Shown here: one piece after another, positions 410 through 22,316 of the stretch | Layout of the letters: every line of letters starts with the position of its first letter | How positions within the stretch are numbered: position 1 is the stretch's first letter | Source of the DNA: Anaerolineae bacterium | GTDB taxonomy: Bacteria; Chloroflexota; Anaerolineae; Aggregatilineales; Phototrophicaceae | Assembly: GCA_026645945.1 (NCBI GenBank) | Contig: JAPKMO010000043.1 | Coordinates: 1-32,877, forward strand | Direction of reading: 5' to 3' | DNA: 32,877 bases | Notes under the pieces: generated by a model | Seen by the model: the letters and a program-made list of their open reading frames with translations, nothing else | What the model was told of the DNA's origin: nothing | Databases searched by the model: none | Made by a program: the position numbers and the translations under genes

Positions 410-3400
410 CTACGCGCCGGTCTGATTTCGCCGCCGCCGCAAAAGGGCGAAGATAATAACCAGCACGATGATGACCACCACAACAATCAGCAGAATCGGC
501 AGCAGGTCAGGGCTGCCGGCAGTCTCGCCGGGTACGGTTTCGATGGTCAGCGTCCCGATGGGCGTCAGGGTCGGGTTCGGCGTCCGGTCTGTCCGCTCTG
601 GGGTCGAAGTTGGGCTGGCGACCACCTGGGCAACTTCGGTCGGCTGCGCCGTCGGCGCGGCTTCAGTCGCTTCTTCGGTCGGCTCTGCCGTTGTTTCAAC
701 CTGGGCGCTGGCGGTCAGCTCGGCTGCGAGAGCCGCCTGAGCGTCCCGCGTCGCCTGGGCATCCAGCGTGCCTTGAGCATCCAGCGTGCCTTGAGCATCC
801 AGCGTGCCTTGAGCATCCAGCGTCGCCTGCGCGTCCAGTGTCGCCTGCGCGTCCCGCGTCGCCTGAGCATCCAGCGTGCCTTGAGCGTCCAGTGTCGCCT
901 GCGCGTCCAGTGTCGCCTGCGCGTCCAGTGCGGCCTGCGCGTCCCGCGTCGCCTGCGCGTCCAGTGCGGCCTGCGCGTCCAGTGTCGCCTGGGCATCCAG
1001 TGCGGCCTGGGCGGCCAGCGCCTCGGCAGTTGCGGTCGCGTCGGCCTCGCTCAGGGCGGCTGCCGTCAGTTCTGCCGCCAGGGTTTGCGTGGCGGCGGCC
1101 TGCTGTGCCGCCAGGGCATCACGGGTAGCCTGTGCACTCCGCGTGGCCTGCGCGTTAGCGGTGGCGCGCGCGTCGGCGGTGGCGCTGGCAGCCGCTTCCA
1201 GGGCCGCGTTGGTAGCCGCATTTTCGATGATAACCGCCTGCGCGGTCAGGTTAATGGACTCGGCCTCGGCGGTCAGCCCTACCCCGGCGGTAGCGCGCGC
1301 ATCGGCGGTCGCCTGGGCATCCAGGGCGGCCTGGGTGTCCAGTGTCGCCTGCCGTTCCTGGGTCGCCAGCGCATCCTGAGCGTCCCGCGTGGCCTGTTCG
1401 CTCAGGGCAATCAGGGCGTCAGCCGTGCCGGTGGCCTGCTGTGCCAGCAGCGCGACCTGCGCGGCGGTCGCCGCCGCGTCTACCGTCGCGGTGAAGGTAG
1501 CTATAGGAGCAGGCGTATCGGTCGGAACGGGCGTATCGGTATCGGGCGGGGTCGGGGTGGCGCTCGGCATAGCCGAAGCTGTCGCCGTCAGCGAAGGCGC
1601 TTCCGACACCAGGAAGGCGGCATCTGCCGCTGCCGTCTGGCCGCCGGCGTTACCCACCACAACGGTCAGGATATGCGCGCCCGGCCCCAGCGCCAGCACG
1701 TCGAGTTCGGCGGTGTAAGGCGCAGCGGTCACAGCGGCGATTTCCACACCGTCTACCGCAAACGTCACGCCGGTGATGGCGGTCTGGCCGCCGGCTTCAA
1801 CCGTGACCACGCGGTTAGCTTCCAGCGTTTCGCCCGGTTGAATGCCGATGATGGTGATGTCCGGCGGCAGCGCCGCCACTTCAAAATCAACAGCGGCAGC
1901 GGCGGACTGGCCGCTTTCCAGCGTCACGGTGGCCGTAAAACGGTTTGCGCCGGGCGGAAGTTCCGCCGCATTAAGCGTGATTGTCGCCGGCGCGGCGATG
2001 GCCGTAATGCTGTAGTGGTCGCCAACCGCCAGCACGATGCGCGTCACAGGCGTTTGCCCGGCGGCATCCACCGTCACAGTCACGCTGTCGCTGACGAACT
2101 GGCCGCTTTCCAGGCCGCTGATGGTGATCTGCGGCGGCAGCGCGGCTACCCGGAAATCCTGCCGGGCGGTTACGGTCACGCCGCCGGCGTTGGTGACATC
2201 CACGAACAGGATGTGTTCGCCGGGGGACAGGCTGGCCGGGTCGACCGTGAACAGGAACGGCGCGGCGGTGACAAGCGCCGGTTCGCCGCCGTCAATGTTA
2301 AAGGCCGCTTCGGTTGGCGGTGTCTGGCCGGTGATTTCCAGCAGGATGGTCTGCGGTTCGGCCAGTTCCCCCGCGCCCAGACCAACGATGGTGACGTTAG
2401 AAGGCAGGGCGGCCACTTCAAACGTGCCGGTGAACTGGCCGACTTTGCCCGTTACGGAATCCAGCGCGCTGAAGGACAGGCTGTGTTCGCCGGGCTGCAG
2501 CCGCTCCGGGTCTATCTCCAGGCTGTAGGGCGGCTCGTTGAAACTGGCGGCGACCACGCCATCCAGCCGGAACTGCGCCAGCGCAATCGGGTTATCGGCC
2601 CGAACGTCCGCCGTCACCATCACCGGCGCGCCGATTGGTTCGGTCGGCAAATCCGGCAGCGAGATGAGCGGCACTAAAATCGGCACGCGAACGACTGTAT
2701 CGGCGCTGGCGCTGCCATCTGGCGTTTCCACATCCACCGTCAAGCCGTACTCCGTCCCATCGCCCGGCACGTCGGCGTTCAGCGTGATGATATACTGGCT
2801 GCGAAGCCGGGCGGCCAGACCATCGTAAACGGCAATTAACTCATCCGGCGTGGGCGACTCGACAAACTGGGCGTTGGTTCCCGTCGAAATTTCCTGCAAA
2901 TACGTGCGATCAATGCCGTAACCCAGGCCGATGGTATAAACCGGCACACCCCGGATGATCGCTTCGTTAAGCGCAACGCCGCGCTCCACATTGCTGAGGT
3001 CGCCATATTCCGCGCCATCGCTCAAAACAATCACCGCGCGGCGCGACGAAGGCGAACCGGAAGCCTGGATAACAGCCTCCAGCGCGCCTTTATAAAGTGC
3101 CGTCTTGCCGCCGGCTTGCAGCCCATCAATGGCATTCAGCAGCGCGGTTTTGTCGGTCGTATAATCCTGAACTAGCTTTACATCACTGTCGAAGGTTATA
3201 ACCGCGACGGGATCGTTCGGCCCGATGGCGTTGATAAACTGTTTGGCGGCTTCGCGTGCGCGGTCTATCGGCGCGCCGGTCATGCTGCTGCTGGTATCAA
3301 TCGCCAGCACGACGGCAAAAGCCAGCTGGTCATCGGTGACATTTTCCACCTGAACCAGGGTCCCCCGCTCCGCCAGGTCGCCGCGAATGTTAAAATCTTC

Positions 3401-3586
3401 AGTCGTCAGGCCAAAAACCGGCTGGCCGAGCTGGTCGAATACGGCGGCGTTGATGACGATGGTCGGCAGGTCGGTGGTGTTCACCCCCGTGATTTCGATT
3501 CGCACGCCGGGCGTCTCCTGCGTGGCCCATAGGGCGACCGGAGCCAGTAACAATGAAAAGATCAGTAAAAAGAGTACCCGTTTCAA
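410..3586 (-). CDS. Secreted, membrane-anchored von Willebrand factor A protein with Ig-like modules and hexapeptide-repeat stalk
   Basis: 1058 residues from a TTG start at 3586. This start places a signal peptide (LKRVLFLLIFSLLL then APVALWA) at the N-terminus and has GGGGG just upstream. An ATG at 3643 would add 19 residues in front of the signal peptide. The VWA domain is at about 90-265, with the MIDAS motif DTSSS at 97-101, a later Thr (GGKTALYKGA) and LSDGAE. Four Ig-like modules, each starting near AALPP and about 95 residues long, follow to about residue 650. Then comes a Thr/Pro linker and a long Ala/Gln/Thr/Asp-rich region ending in 16 near-identical hexapeptides. A final membrane helix (about 1028-1049) precedes RRRR. 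The layout suggests an adhesin-like or ligand-binding domain held away from the cell on a stalk. The ligand is unknown. Confidence 0.88.
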   Translation of the reverse strand: MKRVLFLLIFSLLLAPVALWATQETPGVRIEITGVNTTDLPTIVINAAVFDQLGQPVFGLTTEDFNIRGDLAERGTLVQVENVTDDQLAFAVVLAIDTSSSMTGAPIDRAREAAKQFINAIGPNDPVAVITFDSDVKLVQDYTTDKTALLNAIDGLQAGGKTALYKGALEAVIQASGSPSSRRAVIVLSDGAEYGDLSNVERGVALNEAIIRGVPVYTIGLGYGIDRTYLQEISTGTNAQFVESPTPDELIAVYDGLAARLRSQYIITLNADVPGDGTEYGLTVDVETPDGSASADTVVRVPILVPLISLPDLPTEPIGAPVMVTADVRADNPIALAQFRLDGVVAASFNEPPYSLEIDPERLQPGEHSLSFSALDSVTGKVGQFTGTFEVAALPSNVTIVGLGAGELAEPQTILLEITGQTPPTEAAFNIDGGEPALVTAAPFLFTVDPASLSPGEHILFVDVTNAGGVTVTARQDFRVAALPPQITISGLESGQFVSDSVTVTVDAAGQTPVTRIVLAVGDHYSITAIAAPATITLNAAELPPGANRFTATVTLESGQSAAAAVDFEVAALPPDITIIGIQPGETLEANRVVTVEAGGQTAITGVTFAVDGVEIAAVTAAPYTAELDVLALGPGAHILTVVVGNAGGQTAAADAAFLVSEAPSLTATASAMPSATPTPPDTDTPVPTDTPAPIATFTATVDAAATAAQVALLAQQATGTADALIALSEQATRDAQDALATQERQATLDTQAALDAQATADARATAGVGLTAEAESINLTAQAVIIENAATNAALEAAASATADARATANAQATRSAQATRDALAAQQAAATQTLAAELTAAALSEADATATAEALAAQAALDAQATLDAQAALDAQATRDAQAALDAQATLDAQATLDAQGTLDAQATRDAQATLDAQATLDAQGTLDAQGTLDAQGTLDAQATRDAQAALAAELTASAQVETTAEPTEEATEAAPTAQPTEVAQVVASPTSTPERTDRTPNPTLTPIGTLTIETVPGETAGSPDLLPILLIVVVVIIVLVIIFALLRRRRNQTGA
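725..1012 (-). repeat. 18-bp tandem repeat, 16 copies, inside the VWA gene
   Basis: An 18-bp unit is repeated about 16 times in frame and encodes the hexapeptides AQATLD, AQAALD, AQATRD and AQGTLD (last copy AQAALA). Copies differ mostly at one or two codons, and the run of three identical AQGTLD units suggests recent slippage or unequal exchange. Similar but more diverged A/Q/T/D-rich sequence continues upstream in the gene to about 1480. The unit is coding and has no spacers, so it is not CRISPR. Confidence 0.9.
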
Positions 3587-3668
3587 GGTTGCCCCCGATA
3601 TTGATGAAAGTAAGACCCCGCGCGGCAAAATGCCGTAGCACATGAACCAGCTTTATCTGCATACTACT

Positions 3669-3692
3669 GACAGTGGGCTTAAGCCCACTGTC
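3669..3692. repeat. Perfect 24-bp palindrome, copy 1 of a dispersed intergenic repeat
   Basis: The sequence is a perfect inverted repeat with half-site GACAGTGGGCTT and no loop, centred between 3680 and 3681. It lies in the 184-bp gap upstream of the VWA gene. Related copies occur at 6654-6675 and 28998-29019, also between genes. Confidence 0.85.
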
Positions 3693-3770
3693 GGAAGTAG
3701 ACATTATCATCTTGTCCATGCCGTAGTTTCTATGTTAACCTAATTTTCATTTCCCGCAACTGTATGGTTT

Positions 3771-4301
3771 TTAGGGGTGGGGCGGAAGTTGGCCGATGTT
3801 ATAACCCAGGCTGATGAGGGCCTTGGTAGCGGCCTCGGCAACCGTTGAATCGGCGTCAAACCGGCGGCGCTGGTCATTGCTCACCGCCAGCAAAGGGGGA
3901 ATGGCGCGTTTATCACCCAACTGCTGCATGGCTAAAATGGCACTGCGCCGCACGTCCACCTCGTCGTTTTGCAGCGCCTTTTCGATGGCGTCGAAATGGT
4001 CATGCCCCAACCGGGTGAGCGCAAAAGCCGCCCACACCACCAACTGTGGGTTGCGATGTTTGAGCAGCGGCTTGAGGTATGGGACGGCGCTGGTATCACC
4101 CAGCGTGCCAAGCGCGTTGGCGGCAGCACCCCGGACGCCAACGTGTTCATCCTGGAGCGCGTCAATCAGCGGCTCGATGGCGCGCGCGTCCCCGGTCTGC
4201 CCCAGCAGATAGGCCACAAACTGCCGTATTTGTACGTCCGGGCTGCGCAGCAGTTGAATCGCGCCCTCGATGTCAGGGGTATTGCTCGGATGTTCGGTCA
4301 T
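3771..4301 (-). CDS. HEAT-repeat protein (PBS-lyase HEAT-like)
   Basis: 176 residues, almost entirely HEAT-like repeats of about 31 residues: IRQFVAYLLGQTGDARAIEPL, VRGAAANALGTLGDTSAVPYL, a third with LVVWAAFALTRLG, and VRRSAILAMQQLGDKRAIPPL. These alpha-alpha repeats form protein-binding solenoids; no catalytic residues are expected. There is no signal peptide, so it is cytoplasmic. Its ATG overlaps the stop of the upstream TrpC-like gene by four bases (ATGA), which implies translational coupling and a shared function. A phycobilin-lyase role is very unlikely here, since nothing photosynthetic is nearby. It is best seen as an adaptor for the TrpC-like protein, which is an inference. Confidence 0.88.
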   Translation of the reverse strand: MTEHPSNTPDIEGAIQLLRSPDVQIRQFVAYLLGQTGDARAIEPLIDALQDEHVGVRGAAANALGTLGDTSAVPYLKPLLKHRNPQLVVWAAFALTRLGHDHFDAIEKALQNDEVDVRRSAILAMQQLGDKRAIPPLLAVSNDQRRRFDADSTVAEAATKALISLGYNIGQLPPHP

Positions 4302-5119
4302 AACAGATCGGCAGGGGTATTTGAACGATTCAGCACCGTATTTAAGTCCGCGATCTGTGCCGGGGTGCGGGTGAGGCTTTCCTGAACGATCACCGCATGG
4401 ACTCCCAGTTCGGCCACTGCCGCCACTTCATCCAGCGAACGCAGGCCGTCGGTGAACATCACCCGCATGTTGGACGGAATCTGCCGCCGCAGATGAAGGG
4501 CATTTTCCATATCCAGCCGGTGCGTGGCGGCATCCCGGCTGCGAATACCGATCACATACGGGCTTAAGCTCAGGGCGTAATCCAGCTCGTGCTGGTCGCT
4601 CACCTGCACAATCGCCGTCATGCGGTTGCGATGCGTGGCGGAAACCAGCGCCCGCAGCGTCGGCGGGTCTACCACGCCGGAGTGTAACACCAGCGCCGAA
4701 GCCCCGGCAGCGCGGGTTTCGACCACCTGATACTCATCCAGGATATAATCCTGGCTGATGATCGGCAGGGGTACGGCGCGCGAAACCAGCACCAGGTCAT
4801 CCAGGCCGCGCTGGTACATCACTTCGTCCGTGAACAGCGCCGCCGCGTCCAGACCGGCATGAGCGTAACGCAGCGCGGTGGCTACCGGGTCGTAGGTATC
4901 CCCCAGGATGCCGGTCTGCGGCAGGGTATACCTAATCTGGCCGATAAGCATCACGGATGAGTTATCCGCGACGCTGCTTAACACCGGCTGCGGTCGTTTT
5001 TGCATACTTGCCAGCGCCCGAACGGCTTCAATCGGCGTTTTGGCTTTGCGCTCGATCAGATAGCGCCGTTTAGCGGCAATGATAACATTCAGATGAGGCA
5101 CAAGTTCTTCTGTCGCCAT
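4298..5119 (-). CDS. Indole-3-glycerol-phosphate synthase-like protein lacking the catalytic residues
   Basis: 273 residues with the length and motif order of the TrpC (beta/alpha)8 barrel. Recognisable blocks are IGQIRYTLPQTG (normally AEIKRASPSKG), LPIISQDYILDEYQV (normally LPVLRKDFIIDEYQV), AIVQVSDQHELDYAL (normally LVEVH...EL..AL), VIGIRSRDA (normally IGINNRDL), VMFTDGLRSLDEV (normally VSESGI) and VIVQESLT (normally LVGESLM). The usual Glu, Lys, catalytic Lys, Glu, Asn, Glu and phosphate-binding Gly are replaced by Q61, R63, Q123, Q172, R193, T223 and Q246. The fold is well kept, so this looks like a constrained pseudoenzyme and not a decaying gene. No other trp genes are visible. An AAGGAGG sequence lies about 35 bases before the ATG with no closer in-frame start. 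Confidence 0.85.
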   Translation of the reverse strand: MATEELVPHLNVIIAAKRRYLIERKAKTPIEAVRALASMQKRPQPVLSSVADNSSVMLIGQIRYTLPQTGILGDTYDPVATALRYAHAGLDAAALFTDEVMYQRGLDDLVLVSRAVPLPIISQDYILDEYQVVETRAAGASALVLHSGVVDPPTLRALVSATHRNRMTAIVQVSDQHELDYALSLSPYVIGIRSRDAATHRLDMENALHLRRQIPSNMRVMFTDGLRSLDEVAAVAELGVHAVIVQESLTRTPAQIADLNTVLNRSNTPADLL

Positions 5120-5324
5120 GCGAAATTCTGGGCCGCCCCGGTGAGGGGAACGCCTCCTTATGACCGAAATAGACGGACTTATTTGCTAATTTCCTATTTT
5201 AATGGTTTTTTTCGATTTTGTGGGGCGTGAATTGCTGTAAAATGGGTTTGTGTTTGGTTTGCAAATCGGTGTTATCATACGATCAACTTACGCGACAGAC
5301 CATCATCACTTAAGGATCGGCGTT

Positions 5325-5615
5325 ATGGAACTCTCACACGATCAAGTCCGGTGGATTGCCGAACTGGCAAAACTTGACCTGACCGACCAGGAAGTGACCC
5401 TGTATGCCGGGCAACTTTCCCACATTTTGCAGTATTTCGAGCGCCTCCAGGCGTTGGATACCTCCGCTATCGAACCAACGGCCTCCGTGCTGCCATTAAA
5501 AAACGTCCTGCGCCCGGATGTGGTCACGCCGCCGCTGACACCGGAGCAGGTGATCGCCAATGCGCCGGATTCGGACGACAGCCAGTTTCGTGTAAGCGCC
5601 GTGTTGGACGAATAA
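5325..5615 (+). CDS. gatC: Aspartyl/glutamyl-tRNA(Asn/Gln) amidotransferase subunit C
   Basis: 96 residues from ATG 5325, with AAGGA about nine bases upstream; the open frame extends 25 codons further up but without a better ribosome site. The product matches GatC: MELSHDQVRWIAELAKLDLTD at the N-terminus, a helix with ILQYFERLQALDTSAIEPTA, then PLKNVLRPDVV and the C-terminal FRVSAVLDE. GatC is the small wrapping subunit that stabilises GatA in the GatCAB complex, which converts Glu-tRNA(Gln) or Asp-tRNA(Asn) to the amidated forms. gatA and gatB are not in the window. The next gene, a response regulator, starts 25 bases downstream and is probably co-transcribed. Confidence 0.93.
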   Translation: MELSHDQVRWIAELAKLDLTDQEVTLYAGQLSHILQYFERLQALDTSAIEPTASVLPLKNVLRPDVVTPPLTPEQVIANAPDSDDSQFRVSAVLDE

Positions 5616-5640
5616 CGCCCATCTGATCGAGAGCGAAACC

Positions 5641-6459
5641 ATGCCAAGCCAACGATTACTCGTGATCGAAGATGACTATGATGTGGCCGAAATGCTGGTG
5701 ATGTATTTCACATCCTACCAGTACGAGGTTTTTCATGCCGATTCGGGATTGGCGGGCGTCGAAATGGCACGCGCCAAATATCCCCAGTTGATTTTGCTGG
5801 ATGTGATGATGCCGGACATAGACGGCTACGAAACCTGCCGCCGCATCCGCCAGATGACGCTGACCAAATATATCCCGATCATTTTTCTCACCCAGCGCGA
5901 CGAACGCGCCAACAAGGTCAAAGGGCTGGAATTGGGCGCGGACGATTATATCACCAAACCGTTCGATATTGATGAACTTCGGCTTCGCGTGCAGGGTGCC
6001 ATTCGTCGTGCCACCCGCGAAAGCCTGCACGAATCCCGCACCGGCCTGCCGACTGGGACGCTGGTAGAGGAGGAAATTCAGCGCCGCCGCTACCTCGACC
6101 GGAACTACGTCAGCCTTCAGTTCGGGCTGGACGGCTTCAAACTCTACTGCGATGTTTACGGTTTTATGGCCGGGAACGAAGTATTTGGTTTCGCGGCACG
6201 GGCCATCCAGCAGGTAGTGACCGAATGCGGCACGTCGGACGATTTCATCGGCGTGATAGAAGACCACTTCATCGTTTTGACCGACGCCGACAGAGCCGCT
6301 TCTATCGAAGCCGGTATCAAAAGCGCCTTCGCCGAGGGCGTAAAAACCTTCTATACGTTTGCTGATGTGGAACGCGGCGGCCTGCTGGTGGGCGCCGGAA
6401 CGGACGAGGAGCGGCTGGTTTCGTTGATGGATTTAGTTCCGATCAACGCGCCGGTTTAA
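5641..6459 (+). CDS. Response regulator with receiver domain and degenerate GGDEF-like output domain
   Basis: 272 residues. Residues 5-120 are a complete receiver domain: acidic D11/D12, phospho-acceptor D54 (LILLDVMMPD), T84 and K106 (TKPFD). After a linker helix, residues about 128-265 follow the GGDEF pattern, with TGLPTGTLVEEEI where LTGLPNR is usual, LDGFKLYCDVYGFMAGNEVF where D.DFK.iND.yGH..GD.vL is usual, then IGVIEDHFIVL exactly where the RxGGDEFxxL active-site loop should be. The signature is therefore lost, and diguanylate cyclase activity is not expected. The domain may bind GTP or c-di-GMP, or a partner protein. No cognate kinase is adjacent. Confidence 0.9.
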   Translation: MPSQRLLVIEDDYDVAEMLVMYFTSYQYEVFHADSGLAGVEMARAKYPQLILLDVMMPDIDGYETCRRIRQMTLTKYIPIIFLTQRDERANKVKGLELGADDYITKPFDIDELRLRVQGAIRRATRESLHESRTGLPTGTLVEEEIQRRRYLDRNYVSLQFGLDGFKLYCDVYGFMAGNEVFGFAARAIQQVVTECGTSDDFIGVIEDHFIVLTDADRAASIEAGIKSAFAEGVKTFYTFADVERGGLLVGAGTDEERLVSLMDLVPINAPV

Positions 6460-8118: not shown

Positions 8119-11100
8119 ATGACCGAACGCGAACAGCTTGAGCAGGCGATAGCCGCGCAAGAAGCCCTGCGCGGTATCCTGGGGGATGCCGTCGTGGACG
8201 CGACCATCACCGTGCTGCGCGAAAAACTGGCCTCCCTGGAAAGCGCGTCTCAGGTTTTTGACCAGCGCAAACTGGTGACTATCCTCTTTACCGATACCGT
8301 CTCATCCACGCAGATGTTCGAGCATCTCGACCCTGAAGATGTGCTGGAAATCATGGATGGCGCGCTGCGTATTTTCACCGAGGTCGTCGGCAGCATGGGC
8401 GGCATGGTCGCCCGCTTAATGGGTGACGGCGTGCTGGCTTTTTTTGGCGCCCCGGTGGCCCAGGAAGACGACGCTGTGCGCGCTGTGCGCTGCGGCCTGG
8501 GCATCGTCCGGGGCGCGCGCGCTTATGCCGCCGAGGTCGAGTCGCGCTGGGGCGTGAAGGGTTTTAACGTCCGCGTCGGCATCAATACCGGGTTGGTCGC
8601 GCTGGGCGAAGTCGGCAGCGCCGCCGGTTCGGAATATACCGCGATGGGCGACGCCATCAACCTTGCCAGCCGGCTGGAACATGCCGCGCCGCCCGGCTGC
8701 GTGCTGATCTCCCACGATACTTACCGCCACGTGCGCGGCGTGTTTGAAGTCCGCACCCTCGAACCCCTTCAGGTAAAGGGTAAAAGCGACCCTGTTCAGG
8801 TGTACGTTGTCGAGCGCGAAAAACCGCACACCTTCGGCGTGGTCACGCGGGGCGTGGACGGCATCAAAACCCGTATGATCGGGCGCGAGATGGAACTTAA
8901 ACAGCTTCAGGCCGCGCTGGAGTGGGCCATTGAGGAGAGCGAAACTCAGGTCGTCACCATCCTGGGCGAGCCAGGAGTCGGCAAATCGCGCCTGCTGCGC
9001 GAGTTCGACAACTGGATTGACCAGCGGCCAGACGACGTGTTTCATTTCGCCGGGCGGGCGACGATGGAAATATCCAAACTGCCCTACGCCCTCATCCGTA
9101 ACGTGTTCGCCTTCCGGTTTGAAATCCAGGACAGCGACTCCGCCGCCGTCGTGCGGGAGAAGCTGGAGCGCGGCATCGCCGGGTTTATGGGGCCGGACAG
9201 CCACCACAAGGCCCATTACATCGGCCAGACGATCGGCTTCGATTTTTCCCACAGCATCTTCTTGCAACAGGAAGAGCCGCATCAGGTCGTCCAACTGGGT
9301 ATGTATTACCTGACCGAGTTTTTCGCAGCGGCGGCGGCGCACCATCCCGCTGTGCTGTTCCTGGAAGATATTCACTGGGCGGATGATAAATCGCTCGATC
9401 TGGTGAATTATCTGGTGCGGTCACGGCGCGACCTGCGCCTGCTGGTGGTGTGCCTGGCACGCCCGACGCTGCTGGAGCGCCGCCCGCTGATGTGGGATAA
9501 ACGCCACGAGTTCCACACGCTCATCGAACTCTCGCCGCTGTCTAAAGACGATACCGGCCAACTGGTGGACGAAATCCTGCGAAAAGTGGAAACCACGCCG
9601 CCGCATTTGCGCGAACTGATCGTGGATAGTTCCGACGGCAACCCCTTTTACGTCGAAGAACTGATAAAAATGCTAATAGACGACGGAGTGATCGTCATGG
9701 GCGCGGATCGCTGGCGGGTGGAAACCTCGCGGCTGACCGATATGCGGATTCCGCCCACACTGACCGGCGTTTTGCAGGCGCGCCTGGACGCCCTGCCGCC
9801 CAAAGAACGAATCGTTTTGCAGCGGGCGTCGGTGGTGGGGCGCATCTTCTGGGATCGCGCGGTGGCCGAGCTGCACGCCGAGGGCGACGAGCCGGTAGAC
9901 GACATTGGTCAGGTCATCACCTCGCTTCGCAAGCGCGAGTTGATCCGCCTGCGGGAAAAATCGGCCTTTGCCGGGACCGAGGAATACATCTTCAAACACG
10001 CCATTTTGCGCGATGTCACCTACGAAAGCGTGCTGCGGCGGCTGCGGCGGGTTTACCACGCTCAGGTCGCGGACTGGCTGGTGGAACGCAGCGGCGACCG
10101 CATCGGCGAATACACGGGGCTGATCGCCGAACATTACGAGCGCGCCGGCGATACCCACAAGGCAATGGCTTACCTGGGCCGGGCAGCCGAACAGGCGCTT
10201 AACATCAGCGCCTACCGGGAAGCGATCAACCTGCTGGAGCGGTCGCTGGCGCTGTTGAGCGAAGATACCGGGCGCGCGCAGGAAGCCCTGATTAAATGGC
10301 AGTTAGGACAGGCGTATCGCGGCCTGAGCGCCTACGCCAAAGCCAGAGAGCTGTACGAAGACAGCCTGAAGCTGTTTAAAGCCGCCGAAGACCGGGCCGG
10401 CATCGTCAAAGCCCTGTACGAACTGGGCTGGCTGGTCGGTTATATCATGCGTAACCACGACGAAGGCGAGGCTTACTTCCAGGACGCGCTGCGACTCGCC
10501 CGTGAAATCGGGGACTTGCGCGGCATTGCCTGGGCGCTCAACGGCCTGGGCGTCCTGGCGCACTGGCGGCAGCGCCATGCAGAGGCCATCCGGCACTATG
10601 AAGAAAGCCTGGAACTGGCGCGGCAGATCGGCGACCAGACGCGCATCGCCGGCGCGCTAAACAACCTGGGGCTGGTGAAAAAGGAACTGGGCGAATACGA
10701 CGAGGCGCGGCAGCGGCTTGAAGAAAGCCTGGAAATCTTCCGTGCCATCGGCAACCGCGCCGGCATCGCCAGCCCGCTCACCAACCTGGGCGACCTGGCG
10801 GGCAAACTGGGCCAGCATGAAAAAGCCCGCGAATATTACATCGAAGCCCTCAAAATCCATAAGGAAATCGGCAACCGCGCCGGCATCGCCGGTACGCTCT
10901 CCGGCCTGGGCAGCCTGGCGCGTTTGCAGGGCGAATACGAAGAAGCCCGCCAGCGATTCGTGGAGTCCCTGGCGATCAGCAAAGAAATCGAATACCGCAC
11001 CGGCATCGCCATGAGCCTGGAAGACCTGGCGCTGGTGGCGCGCTTCCAGGGCAACTATGCCGAAGCCCGGCAGCGGCTGCACGAAATCCTGCAAATCGCC

Positions 11101-11742
11101 CGCGAACTGGGCGACCGACGGGAAATTGCCGAGGCGCTGCTCAACCTGGGAGCGGTCGAACGCGCCCAGGGCAACTGGGACGAGGCGCGGCGCTACCTGC
11201 AAGAAAGTCTGGCGATGAACGACGCGCAGGATAATCGTAAAGGCGTGGCGGCGGCGCTGGATTTCCTGGGCGACGTGGCCTTCACGCTCCAGGATTACGA
11301 AGAAGCCTGGCGCTGTTACGAAACCAGCCTGGCAATTTACAAAGAGTTTGAAGACCGCAGCGGCATGGTGGTGGCCCTGTGCGGCCTGGGTGATGTGGCG
11401 GTGGCGCTGGAGGAATACGATACCGCGCGCGAATACTTCTACGAAGCCTTCACCGCCGCTTCCACCATCCGGGATACGCCCCTAACGCTGTGGGTGCTGA
11501 CCGGCATCGCCGCGCTGCTGGCGAAAACCGGCGAACAGGAACGCAGTGTGGAAATGCTTGGCCTGGTGCTTGACCACTGCGCCACCCCGCAGGAAGCCCG
11601 CGACCGCGCGCAGGCCATTTTGGCCGGGCTGGATATGCCGGTGCTGGAAATAGACAGCGCCCTGGAGCGCGGCAAGGCGATGGACGGCGTGGAAACAACC
11701 CGCCAGTTGTTCCGCATGGCCGATAATAAGTGGTTAATGTGA
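8119..11742 (+). CDS. Class III adenylate/guanylate cyclase - AAA ATPase - TPR regulatory protein
   Basis: 1207 residues, CGGAG upstream of the ATG. An N-terminal coiled coil (1-45) is followed by a class III cyclase domain (about 50-230). It has metal Asp D59 (LFTDT) and D103 (MGDGVLAFFG), and transition-state N181 and R185 (INLASRLE). The substrate-choosing pair is R99 and T174 (SEYTAMGD) where Lys and Asp are usual; Thr is common in several bacterial subclasses. An AAA/STAND-like ATPase follows, with Walker A GEPGVGKS (283-290) and Walker B VLFLEDIHWAD near 412-422. From about residue 665 to 1130 there are around eleven TPR units of 40 residues. The design is a nucleotide-gated signalling hub: TPRs bind partners, the ATPase switches, and the cyclase may make cAMP. 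Whether the cyclase is active is unproven. Confidence 0.92.
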   Translation: MTEREQLEQAIAAQEALRGILGDAVVDATITVLREKLASLESASQVFDQRKLVTILFTDTVSSTQMFEHLDPEDVLEIMDGALRIFTEVVGSMGGMVARLMGDGVLAFFGAPVAQEDDAVRAVRCGLGIVRGARAYAAEVESRWGVKGFNVRVGINTGLVALGEVGSAAGSEYTAMGDAINLASRLEHAAPPGCVLISHDTYRHVRGVFEVRTLEPLQVKGKSDPVQVYVVEREKPHTFGVVTRGVDGIKTRMIGREMELKQLQAALEWAIEESETQVVTILGEPGVGKSRLLREFDNWIDQRPDDVFHFAGRATMEISKLPYALIRNVFAFRFEIQDSDSAAVVREKLERGIAGFMGPDSHHKAHYIGQTIGFDFSHSIFLQQEEPHQVVQLGMYYLTEFFAAAAAHHPAVLFLEDIHWADDKSLDLVNYLVRSRRDLRLLVVCLARPTLLERRPLMWDKRHEFHTLIELSPLSKDDTGQLVDEILRKVETTPPHLRELIVDSSDGNPFYVEELIKMLIDDGVIVMGADRWRVETSRLTDMRIPPTLTGVLQARLDALPPKERIVLQRASVVGRIFWDRAVAELHAEGDEPVDDIGQVITSLRKRELIRLREKSAFAGTEEYIFKHAILRDVTYESVLRRLRRVYHAQVADWLVERSGDRIGEYTGLIAEHYERAGDTHKAMAYLGRAAEQALNISAYREAINLLERSLALLSEDTGRAQEALIKWQLGQAYRGLSAYAKARELYEDSLKLFKAAEDRAGIVKALYELGWLVGYIMRNHDEGEAYFQDALRLAREIGDLRGIAWALNGLGVLAHWRQRHAEAIRHYEESLELARQIGDQTRIAGALNNLGLVKKELGEYDEARQRLEESLEIFRAIGNRAGIASPLTNLGDLAGKLGQHEKAREYYIEALKIHKEIGNRAGIAGTLSGLGSLARLQGEYEEARQRFVESLAISKEIEYRTGIAMSLEDLALVARFQGNYAEARQRLHEILQIARELGDRREIAEALLNLGAVERAQGNWDEARRYLQESLAMNDAQDNRKGVAAALDFLGDVAFTLQDYEEAWRCYETSLAIYKEFEDRSGMVVALCGLGDVAVALEEYDTAREYFYEAFTAASTIRDTPLTLWVLTGIAALLAKTGEQERSVEMLGLVLDHCATPQEARDRAQAILAGLDMPVLEIDSALERGKAMDGVETTRQLFRMADNKWLM
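10627..11100 (+). repeat. 120-bp coding repeat (TPR units)
   Basis: Consecutive TPR units repeat every 120 bp. For instance a 24-base block encoding IGNRAGIA is identical at 10747 and 10867, and a close variant (IEYRTGIA) sits at 10987. This points to fairly recent internal duplication within the TPR array. Confidence 0.7.
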
Positions 11743-21119: not shown

Positions 21120-22316
21120 ATGGCACGATTGATTATGCGGCGCGGCCCTCGTCCCGGCCAGATTTTTGAACTTAAGGAAGATGTCGTCACCATCGGCAGC
21201 GGCAGTAAAAATGACATTGTGATTCTGGATAACGATGTCAGCCGCGAACACTGCCGGCTCGTCCGTGTGATGACCGACTACGAGCTGGAGGACTTAAAAT
21301 CAGGCCGGGGAACGTTCGTCAGCGGCCAGCGCGTGGAAAGCGGCTGGTTATTAAAACCCGGCAGTTTTATCGAACTGGGGGAAAACATCACCCTGGAATA
21401 CGACCGGGGCGATACCAGCCTGGAAATGCCCAAAGTGCCGTCCCAGGCCCTTAATGCCGAAGCCCCAGACCCGAACGTGCATCCCTACCTGGTGATGACG
21501 GTTGGCCTCAATCCCGGCCAGGTTCACCCCCTCAAAAACCGGACGGTGCGGCTGGGGCGCGACCTGTCTAACGACATCGTGCTGCAAGACCCGGAAGTAA
21601 GCCGTTTTCATCTGCTGCTGCGCTGGACGGACAAAGGCTACCAGATCGAGGATTTAAACTCCACCAACGGCACGCGCATCAACGGCGTGACCATCGCGCC
21701 GGACGAGCCGCATCTCCTGCGCGCCAATGATATGATTCAACTGGCGACGATGGCCGAATTTCGTTATACGTGGCAGCCGGGCGATGTCGCGCCGCTGGAA
21801 TCCTCGACCAAAAGTACGCGGCGCGTGCCGCCCAAACTCGACACCAGCGAGATTAATATCCTGGGGCCTAAACGCCATAAACACCAGACCAGCCGCCTGG
21901 GGACCGGCTTGCAGCCCGGTTCGCTGGTAGACCACCTCTTTATCGCCTACGCGCGCGAAGAATGGGAGGCCATCGTCGCGCCGCTGATGGCGATTTTGCA
22001 GGACGCCGGACTCAAAGTCTGGGTGGATCAATATCTCGTCCAGGGCGGCGACGATTGGATGCTGGCCGTCGAGCAGGCGCTTTCGGAATGCTGGCTGCTG
22101 CTGTTGGTGGTTTCGCCCGCTTCGCTGGAGTCGCGCTACGTGCGGCTGGCGTATCGCTATTTTCTCAACCGTGAAAAACCCATCATCCCGATGCTGTATG
22201 TGGCAGTCGAAAACCTGCCGCTGGAACTGAGCAATTCAAAATCCATCCGGTACGACAGCCACAACCGCCGCCAGAGTTTTGATGCTTTGATCGGCGAGAT
22301 TCGCCAGCGGCGCTGA
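21120..22316 (+). CDS. FHA-FHA-TIR domain protein
   Basis: 398 residues. FHA domain 1 is at about 5-95 (VVTIGSGSKNDIVILDNDVSREHCRL, then DLKSGRGTFVSG). FHA domain 2 is at about 118-222 (VRLGRDLSNDIVLQDPEVSRFHLLL, LNSTNGTRINGV). Both keep the Arg/Ser/His/Asn residues that bind phosphothreonine, although the first has GSGSKN where GR is usual. After a basic linker, a TIR domain spans about 268-395: LVDHLFIAYAREEWEAIV, LKVWVDQYLVQGGDDWMLAVEQAL, LLLLVVSPASLESRYVRLAYRYFL. The catalytic Glu that normally follows the S.WV..E motif is Ala344 here, so NADase activity is doubtful. It likely docks phosphoproteins, perhaps from a Ser/Thr kinase encoded elsewhere. The next gene is a histidine kinase 113 bases away. 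Confidence 0.9.
   Translation: MARLIMRRGPRPGQIFELKEDVVTIGSGSKNDIVILDNDVSREHCRLVRVMTDYELEDLKSGRGTFVSGQRVESGWLLKPGSFIELGENITLEYDRGDTSLEMPKVPSQALNAEAPDPNVHPYLVMTVGLNPGQVHPLKNRTVRLGRDLSNDIVLQDPEVSRFHLLLRWTDKGYQIEDLNSTNGTRINGVTIAPDEPHLLRANDMIQLATMAEFRYTWQPGDVAPLESSTKSTRRVPPKLDTSEINILGPKRHKHQTSRLGTGLQPGSLVDHLFIAYAREEWEAIVAPLMAILQDAGLKVWVDQYLVQGGDDWMLAVEQALSECWLLLLVVSPASLESRYVRLAYRYFLNREKPIIPMLYVAVENLPLELSNSKSIRYDSHNRRQSFDALIGEIRQRR

Follow-up and report, generated by a model that had tools for sequence, protein, structure and literature searches.

The window analysed here is the whole stretch of 32,877 nucleotides from an Anaerolineae bacterium, and one reading frame on its minus strand (4298..5119; ATG start at 5119, stop at 4298) raises the question of what a TrpC barrel is kept for when the residues of its chemistry are gone. 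The 273-amino-acid product is a TrpC-like protein without the catalytic residues of indole-3-glycerol-phosphate synthase (IGPS), as judged from a profile match, alignments and an AlphaFold2 model. It matched the Pfam IGPS model (PF00218) with 132.3 bits, against a curated cut-off of 27, over nearly the whole model (protein residues 11-255, model positions 2-247 of 254), which places it in the IGPS superfamily. With NCBIfam, it remained far under the cut-off of all 14 models matched (best 156.4 against 260) and does not qualify as a TrpC equivalog. AlphaFold2, run with ten input sequences, predicted an alpha/beta barrel with a pLDDT of 83.2 and a pTM of 0.84 in the best model, the only good one of five (mean pLDDT 83, 68, 57, 54 and 47). 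The predicted structure is a TIM barrel with the N-terminal extension of IGPS, and its top Foldseek matches were of the IGPS type: a designed Kemp eliminase came first (TM 0.83), followed by TrpC of M. tuberculosis (TM 0.81), and the 50 matches listed were IGPS enzymes, TrpC-TrpF fusions or designed or engineered proteins (TM to query 0.63-0.83). Fold, length, N-terminal extension and motif order are thus common to this protein and ordinary TrpC/IGPS (structures 3qja and 1igs). A previous sequence-only reading had claimed that the motif order and length of TrpC were kept and had suggested structure prediction as a check; the full-length match (132 bits) and the IGPS-type barrel (pLDDT 83) agree with that claim.

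The same reading had named seven residues as replaced. In Sulfolobus IGPS, the catalytic residues given in PMC3391178 are E51, K53, K110, E159, N180 and S211, and the ligand contacts given there include E210, G212, G233 and S234. We mapped residues on printed alignments of the TrpC-like protein to two M. tuberculosis TrpC entries, 4fb7 and 3qja, and the Sulfolobus numbering of PMC3391178 was transferred by motif, without a printed alignment to the Sulfolobus protein. All seven replacements were found: on the minus strand, Gln61 (4937..4939) stands opposite the catalytic Glu (E51), Arg63 (4931..4933) opposite the catalytic Lys (K53), Gln123 (4751..4753) opposite the general-acid Lys (K110), Gln172 (4604..4606) opposite the catalytic Glu (E159), Arg193 (4541..4543) opposite Asn (N180), Thr223 (4451..4453) opposite Glu (E210) and Gln246 (4382..4384) opposite the phosphate-site Gly (G233). 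Positions 63, 172, 193 and 246 were also read from an alignment of the class. A shifted alignment was rejected as the explanation, since the printed alignments to solved TrpC structures agree with this 122-row class alignment.

The class alignment contains one sequence per locus, and its rows fall into two groups: 63 rows keep six or seven of the seven residues, 59 keep none to three, and none keeps four or five. The terms "ordinary TrpC" and "paralogue" are defined here by this count itself, and the 63 ordinary rows represent 62 genes (L071 and L186 are the same gene). The window protein keeps none of the seven and lacks the catalytic and ligand residues that characterize TrpC. The general-acid Lys (position 123) is present in 62 of the 63 ordinary rows and Glu at position 223 in all 63, whereas each is kept in 0/59 paralogues. 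The other positions are less uniform between the 43 close paralogues, from the window's family, and the 16 paralogues from other families in the order: Glu61 is kept in 0/43 and 9/16, Lys63 in 12/43 and 10/16, Glu172 in 14/43 and 2/16, Asn193 in 1/43 and 5/16, and Gly246 in 4/43 and 13/16, respectively. Because the relatives keep some of the residues to a differing extent, the swaps in the window protein are, by these alignments, one stage in a graded loss. The relatives share the loss of Lys123 and Glu223 completely, that of residues such as Lys63 and Glu172 in part. Loss of the essential catalytic residues, one of the properties expected of a pseudoenzyme, is evident. As a separate observation, the copy L147 (G494:C60:8728-9489), the sole IGPS match in a genome that is 76% complete, keeps six of the seven residues and has Gln for the general-acid Lys; it is possibly an early stage of loss.

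All 59 paralogues were found in one order of Anaerolineae (Chloroflexota). Within the window's family, the paralogue is present in at least 43 of 98 genomes, including 16 of the 17 in the window's genus, with its absence from the other 55 judged mostly by score and not by inspection of every match. Among other genomes of the order, it is present in at least 16 of 56; the count for the order leaves out matches of G140, G146 and G151 and further matches of G047. Nine named relatives come from metagenome-assembled genomes labelled Chloroflexi, Anaerolineae and, once, Aggregatilineales. A single branch (SH-aLRT 100) separates the 59 paralogues from the 63 ordinary rows in a quick maximum-likelihood tree of the 122 rows; the catalytic columns were kept in this tree, and the branch leading to the paralogue L072 is very long. 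A five-residue signature (Q40, R42, S160, Q/H163 and R164), picked on the same sequences on which it was scored, is present with at least three of five residues in 59/59 paralogues and in 0/63 ordinary TrpC rows. Outside the order, all 20 top-scoring IGPS copies inspected keep six or seven of the seven catalytic and ligand residues, and the signature was found solely inside the order among the copies inspected (outside, these 20 and 17 more). Confinement of the family to the order was not upheld as a conclusion, since members may have been missed beyond those 20 and 17 copies.

Lost residues and a scattered occurrence, in at least 43 of the 98 family genomes, would also be expected of a decaying gene without function. 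This explanation is hardly credible, however: for five close genomes, dN/dS of the paralogue by the Nei-Gojobori method was 0.11-0.20 in all ten pairs, and the ordinary TrpCs in those genomes gave 0.11-0.28. The ratios are rough in several pairs with dS above 1, and the closest paralogue pair gave 0.11. In addition, nearly all copies listed have a full-length reading frame, and the clade has conserved residues that TrpC does not share. We therefore rejected a pseudogene on the dN/dS values, which indicate purifying selection, another property expected of a pseudoenzyme. These sequence comparisons establish descent from TrpC, loss of the essential residues in the 59 relatives of the order and purifying selection in the close relatives.

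A normal trpC elsewhere in the genome, the presence of which had been proposed as a check, was found on another contig (C82:4872-5627; row L001). It scores 290 bits with the IGPS model, keeps 7/7 residues and is followed by a TrpF match at C82:5666-6298, whereas the window copy is not beside trp genes. As for INDEPENDENCE from tryptophan synthesis, no second IGPS was detected in 10 of the 59 paralogue genomes. In six of them (G039, G040, G041, G043, G046 and G052; drafts with completeness of 98, 89, 89, 97, 96 and 91%, respectively), neither TrpA nor a second IGPS was detected, and a TrpF match was not found in four of these six. TrpF-family matches were observed in the other two, where no ordinary TrpC or TrpA was detected (G039:C47:15213-15833, 78 bits; G046:C55:2946-3569, 85 bits). 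The other four of the ten (G002, G036, G067 and G078), which are less complete or fragmented assemblies, have TrpA but no second IGPS, and two (G080 and G139) have a second IGPS with no TrpA detected. The genome comparison thus demonstrates that the paralogue persists in genomes with no detected second IGPS or TrpA. Because it is kept in such draft genomes, the paralogue appears to need no TrpC and probably no tryptophan pathway. The sole IGPS-family match in the six genomes is the degenerate copy, which exceeds the Pfam cut-off, and annotation that relies on nothing but the family score would name such genes trpC. In four genomes of the window's genus, the normal TrpA is accompanied by a further TrpA-family match of lower score (99-116 bits; G001:C85, G014:C3, G016:C78 and G011:C118), and TrpA may have divergent paralogues there too.

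These genomes also bear on the possibility that the protein is a regulatory partner of tryptophan enzymes. The model for such a role is the eudicot TSB-like pseudoenzyme, described in PMC12727527 as a dead TSB paralogue that activates TSA; like the window's family, it is a catalytically dead paralogue from the tryptophan pathway with a retained role. However, TSB-like derives from TSB and acts on TSA, whereas the window's family descends from TrpC, and no TrpA was detected in 8/59 paralogue genomes. With the genome's own trpC on another contig, followed by trpF, and with six genomes that keep the paralogue and have neither a second IGPS nor TrpA detected, we disfavour this analogy and regard a role in regulating the pathway as very unlikely. 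Since selection preserves a copy without the catalytic residues, and some hosts seemingly lack tryptophan synthesis, the TrpC-like protein probably does some job other than that of IGPS.

To locate the remaining constraint, we compared conservation along the protein. The sequence-only reading had supposed that the chemistry was removed and the pocket kept. In ordinary TrpC, 14 active-site and ligand-contact positions have a median conservation rank of 27 of 254, and 0 of 10000 random sets were as conserved. In the 43 close paralogues the median rank of the same positions is 133 of 254, a level of conservation equalled or exceeded by 3711 of 10000 random sets, and in the 16 paralogues of other families it is 121 of 254 (3192 of 10000). 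In contrast to ordinary TrpC, the pocket is under no special constraint in the paralogues, many of which have a shorter loop after strand 1, so that a kept pocket finds little support. The exceptions are Gln61 and Gln123 (37/43 each) and Tyr125 (34/43), which stay the most conserved of the pocket residues in close paralogues while the remaining active-site positions are average.

Conservation had increased in two other regions, which, together with the segment 123-141 that is conserved alike in ordinary TrpC, close paralogues and other-family paralogues, were selected after viewing the conservation ranks. The first is the N-terminal helix segment of codons 24-45 (4985..5050, minus strand), with R24, T28-P29, A32, L36, A37, M39, Q40 and R42-P43: among 233 windows of the alignment, 226 are at least as conserved in ordinary TrpC and 8 in close paralogues. 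Because the corresponding number is 164 in the 16 paralogues of other families, this gain appears to be a property of the window's family. The second leads from helix 4 to strand 5 (codons 155-168, 4616..4657, minus strand; helix 152-164 in the model) and contains S160, Q/H163 and R164. Here 198 of 241 windows are at least as conserved in ordinary TrpC, 28 in close paralogues and 17 in other families, and R164, which is variable in ordinary TrpC, is present in 59/59 paralogues. By these alignments, constraint has shifted from the active-site pocket to the N-terminal helix segment and helix 4.

We therefore had to consider what kind of protein would be conserved in this way, and we lean slightly towards a non-catalytic, trpC-derived binding or scaffold module that uses the N-terminal segment and helix 4 and is independent of tryptophan synthesis. 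An ancient duplicate of trpC would have lost its indole-glycerol-phosphate synthase chemistry and been kept as a non-catalytic, folded protein, docking a partner (or itself) via these two surfaces. Its pocket would be vestigial or would at most accommodate an uncharged ligand next to Gln61, Gln123 and Tyr125, and its function would not depend on tryptophan synthesis. Several observations count against this scaffold: the conservation of Gln61 and Gln123 would be superfluous in a purely vestigial pocket, the N-terminal gain is unclear in the 16 paralogues of other families, and a TrpF-family match is still present in G039 and G046. The earlier suggestion of a ligand-sensing or scaffold paralogue rather than a trp enzyme accordingly survives as to the missing IGPS residues and the loss common to relatives, and is little supported as to the kept pocket.

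The conserved pocket residues could point to a ligand sensor, as the sequence-only reading had also suggested, in which the pocket of the barrel would have been retained and adapted to bind a probably uncharged metabolite without turnover. We consider this unlikely. Asp98, present in 43/43 close paralogues, can be added to Gln61, Gln123 and Tyr125, but it is also present in 63/63 ordinary TrpC rows; taken together, the 14 active-site positions are no longer specially constrained, conservation is close to its lowest in the loops that follow strands 1 and 6, the phosphate-site Gly is rarely kept in close paralogues, and different residues occupy positions 61 and 123 among the 16 paralogues from other families.

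TIM barrels often change their reaction, and the protein could instead be an enzyme that has acquired new chemistry while keeping the barrel. Judging from the strand ends of the model, the conserved Gln61, Asp98, Gln123 and Tyr130 should lie at or close to the catalytic face. However, no invariant acid or base that is new to the paralogues was seen at that face among the most conserved columns, and the newly conserved residues lie mostly in the N-terminal segment and helix 4; we consider new chemistry quite unlikely. A published analogy points the other way. According to PMC6380595, apicomplexans and Vitrella have IGPS-like proteins, PfAMR1 among them, which are IGPS-derived barrels in which key residues are not conserved and which were kept after the loss of tryptophan synthesis; the genes gave no complementation of an E. 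coli trpC mutant, with the protein undetected in that test, and apicoplast biogenesis requires PfAMR1. For PfAMR1 the authors put forward a new biochemical function and not a scaffold, which by analogy would favour new chemistry over the scaffold that we prefer here.

If the protein is a scaffold or docking module, its neighbours may include a partner. A HEAT-repeat protein of 176 amino acids (3771..4301, minus strand; profile match) is encoded directly downstream, with its ATG overlapping the TrpC-like stop by 4 bases, and the next downstream gene (410..3643, minus strand; domain search) encodes a VWA-domain protein with bacterial Ig domains, in which an extended low-complexity repeat of Ala, Gln, Asp and Thr and, at the C terminus, a hydrophobic stretch were recognized by eye. 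Across the divergent intergenic region (5120..5324) lies gatC (5325..5615, plus strand; profile matches), followed by a response regulator with a weak GGDEF match (5641..6459, plus strand; profile match). When 3600-5700 was scanned for simple sigma-70 promoters, 2 sites were found, where shuffled sequence would give 1.4, and neither lies in the divergent region. The gene gatC is divergently upstream of the paralogue in 33/43 close loci and in 1/14 other-family loci with enough flank. At loci with enough flank, the HEAT-repeat gene follows the paralogue in 18/41 close and 0/14 other-family cases; a VWA-domain gene occurs within 1.8 kb in 18/41 close-paralogue loci and 0/14 other-family loci. 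A HEAT orthologue (E 1e-20) was found in 18/43 paralogue genomes compared with 3/55 others in the family (Fisher p = 1.4e-5, ignoring shared ancestry). Because three genomes of the genus g16 have the HEAT-VWA pair without a TrpC-like gene beside it, the HEAT-repeat protein may go with the VWA protein rather than exclusively with the TrpC-like protein. As the orthologue at E 1e-20 is also missing from 25/43 paralogue genomes, an obligatory partnership was rejected, and the co-encoded HEAT-repeat protein would be a possible partner and not an obligatory one. In PADLOC the TrpC-like protein had no match and its neighbour had three HEAT-type matches, all weak or generic, on which a link with defence was rejected. 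Elsewhere in the window, we observed by eye a protein with two FHA-like domains followed by a TIR-like domain (21120-22316, plus strand), and an adenylate/guanylate cyclase domain is fused to an AAA ATPase and TPR repeats (8119-11742, plus strand).

The earlier statement that the protein has no described function holds for the window's family in the literature searched, and needs amending in that diverged IGPS-like proteins are in print for eukaryotes. The PfAMR1-type proteins and the window's family share an IGPS-derived TIM barrel, key active-site residues that are not conserved, and persistence beyond tryptophan synthesis. The former are eukaryotic, with a plastid role and large terminal extensions, whereas the latter is bacterial with its own signature; we regard this as a similarity of kind, by description, and claim no common origin. 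The TrpF-TrpC fusion of Leucomyxa plasmidifera was judged a pseudoenzyme (PMC11528492). As in the window's family, an essential Lys is lost in its TrpC region and the host was judged a tryptophan auxotroph; unlike the window's family, the fused TrpF region has also lost a residue, and the case concerns one eukaryote. No bacterial TrpC-derived pseudoenzyme was found described in a limited set of open-access literature, for which several result lists were covered in part. To a kind already known in eukaryotes, our comparisons add what appears to be a new family of bacterial pseudoenzymes, derived from TrpC and marked by a signature of its own. TrpC itself is known from textbooks and often serves as a scaffold in protein design, and a bacterial family under selection that has kept the fold and dropped the catalytic residues offers a natural test of the barrel's other capacities. 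Its hosts are unrelated to the malaria-parasite case, and it persists where tryptophan synthesis seems lost.

We also surveyed the class (396 genomes) for other degenerate copies. Twenty-eight genomes outside the order were picked, 25 with two or more IGPS matches and three with one unusually weak match, and 17 IGPS copies from them were inspected; several other second matches were short pieces and were left out. Fourteen of the 17 are degenerate, with 12 keeping 0-2 of the seven residues, one keeping four and one five, and the remaining three are ordinary. The degenerate copies (L187-L200) come from G297, G281, G498, G338, G289, G216, G271, G252, G198, G321, G163, G229, G306 and G343. The Lys is lost in 14/14 and Glu at position 223 in 13/14; as in the window's family, the copies, from the families f18, f42, f22, f56 and f39, have all lost the catalytic Lys and at least one further residue. 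They have 0-1 of the five signature residues, however, and the window's family differs from them by its signature, its separate place in the tree and its neighbours. In a quick tree of 69 rows, in which two long-branch rows make the count of changes approximate, the degenerate copies including the window's family need five changes, at least four of them forced by well supported branches. The degenerate G343 copy is paired with the TrpC from the same genome, and the f42 copies cluster with TrpCs of their own family. This quick tree suggests that degenerate TrpC copies without the window's signature arose separately elsewhere in the class, and there are signs of several separate losses within one class, which would permit comparison. 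A broader proposal can be put forward tentatively, and we hold it to be rather doubtful: Anaerolineae would repeatedly turn TrpC into a non-catalytic docking protein, with the window's family as an ancient, selected case with its own interaction surface (N-terminal helix and helix 4) and at least three further events; together with PfAMR1 and Leucomyxa, IGPS would then repeatedly have supplied the raw material for a role outside tryptophan synthesis that outlasts the pathway, seen here for the first time in bacteria.

In ten degenerate loci viewed, some with short flanks, no neighbour matched the gatC, response regulator, HEAT or VWA genes of the window. The copies L192 (G216:C29) and L196 (G321:C201) are each the sole IGPS match of their genome. 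By eye, the degenerate copy adjoins a metallo-hydrolase-like gene in the f18 loci L212 and L213, and lies near a protease-like gene of roughly 990 amino acids in the f42 loci L205-L207.
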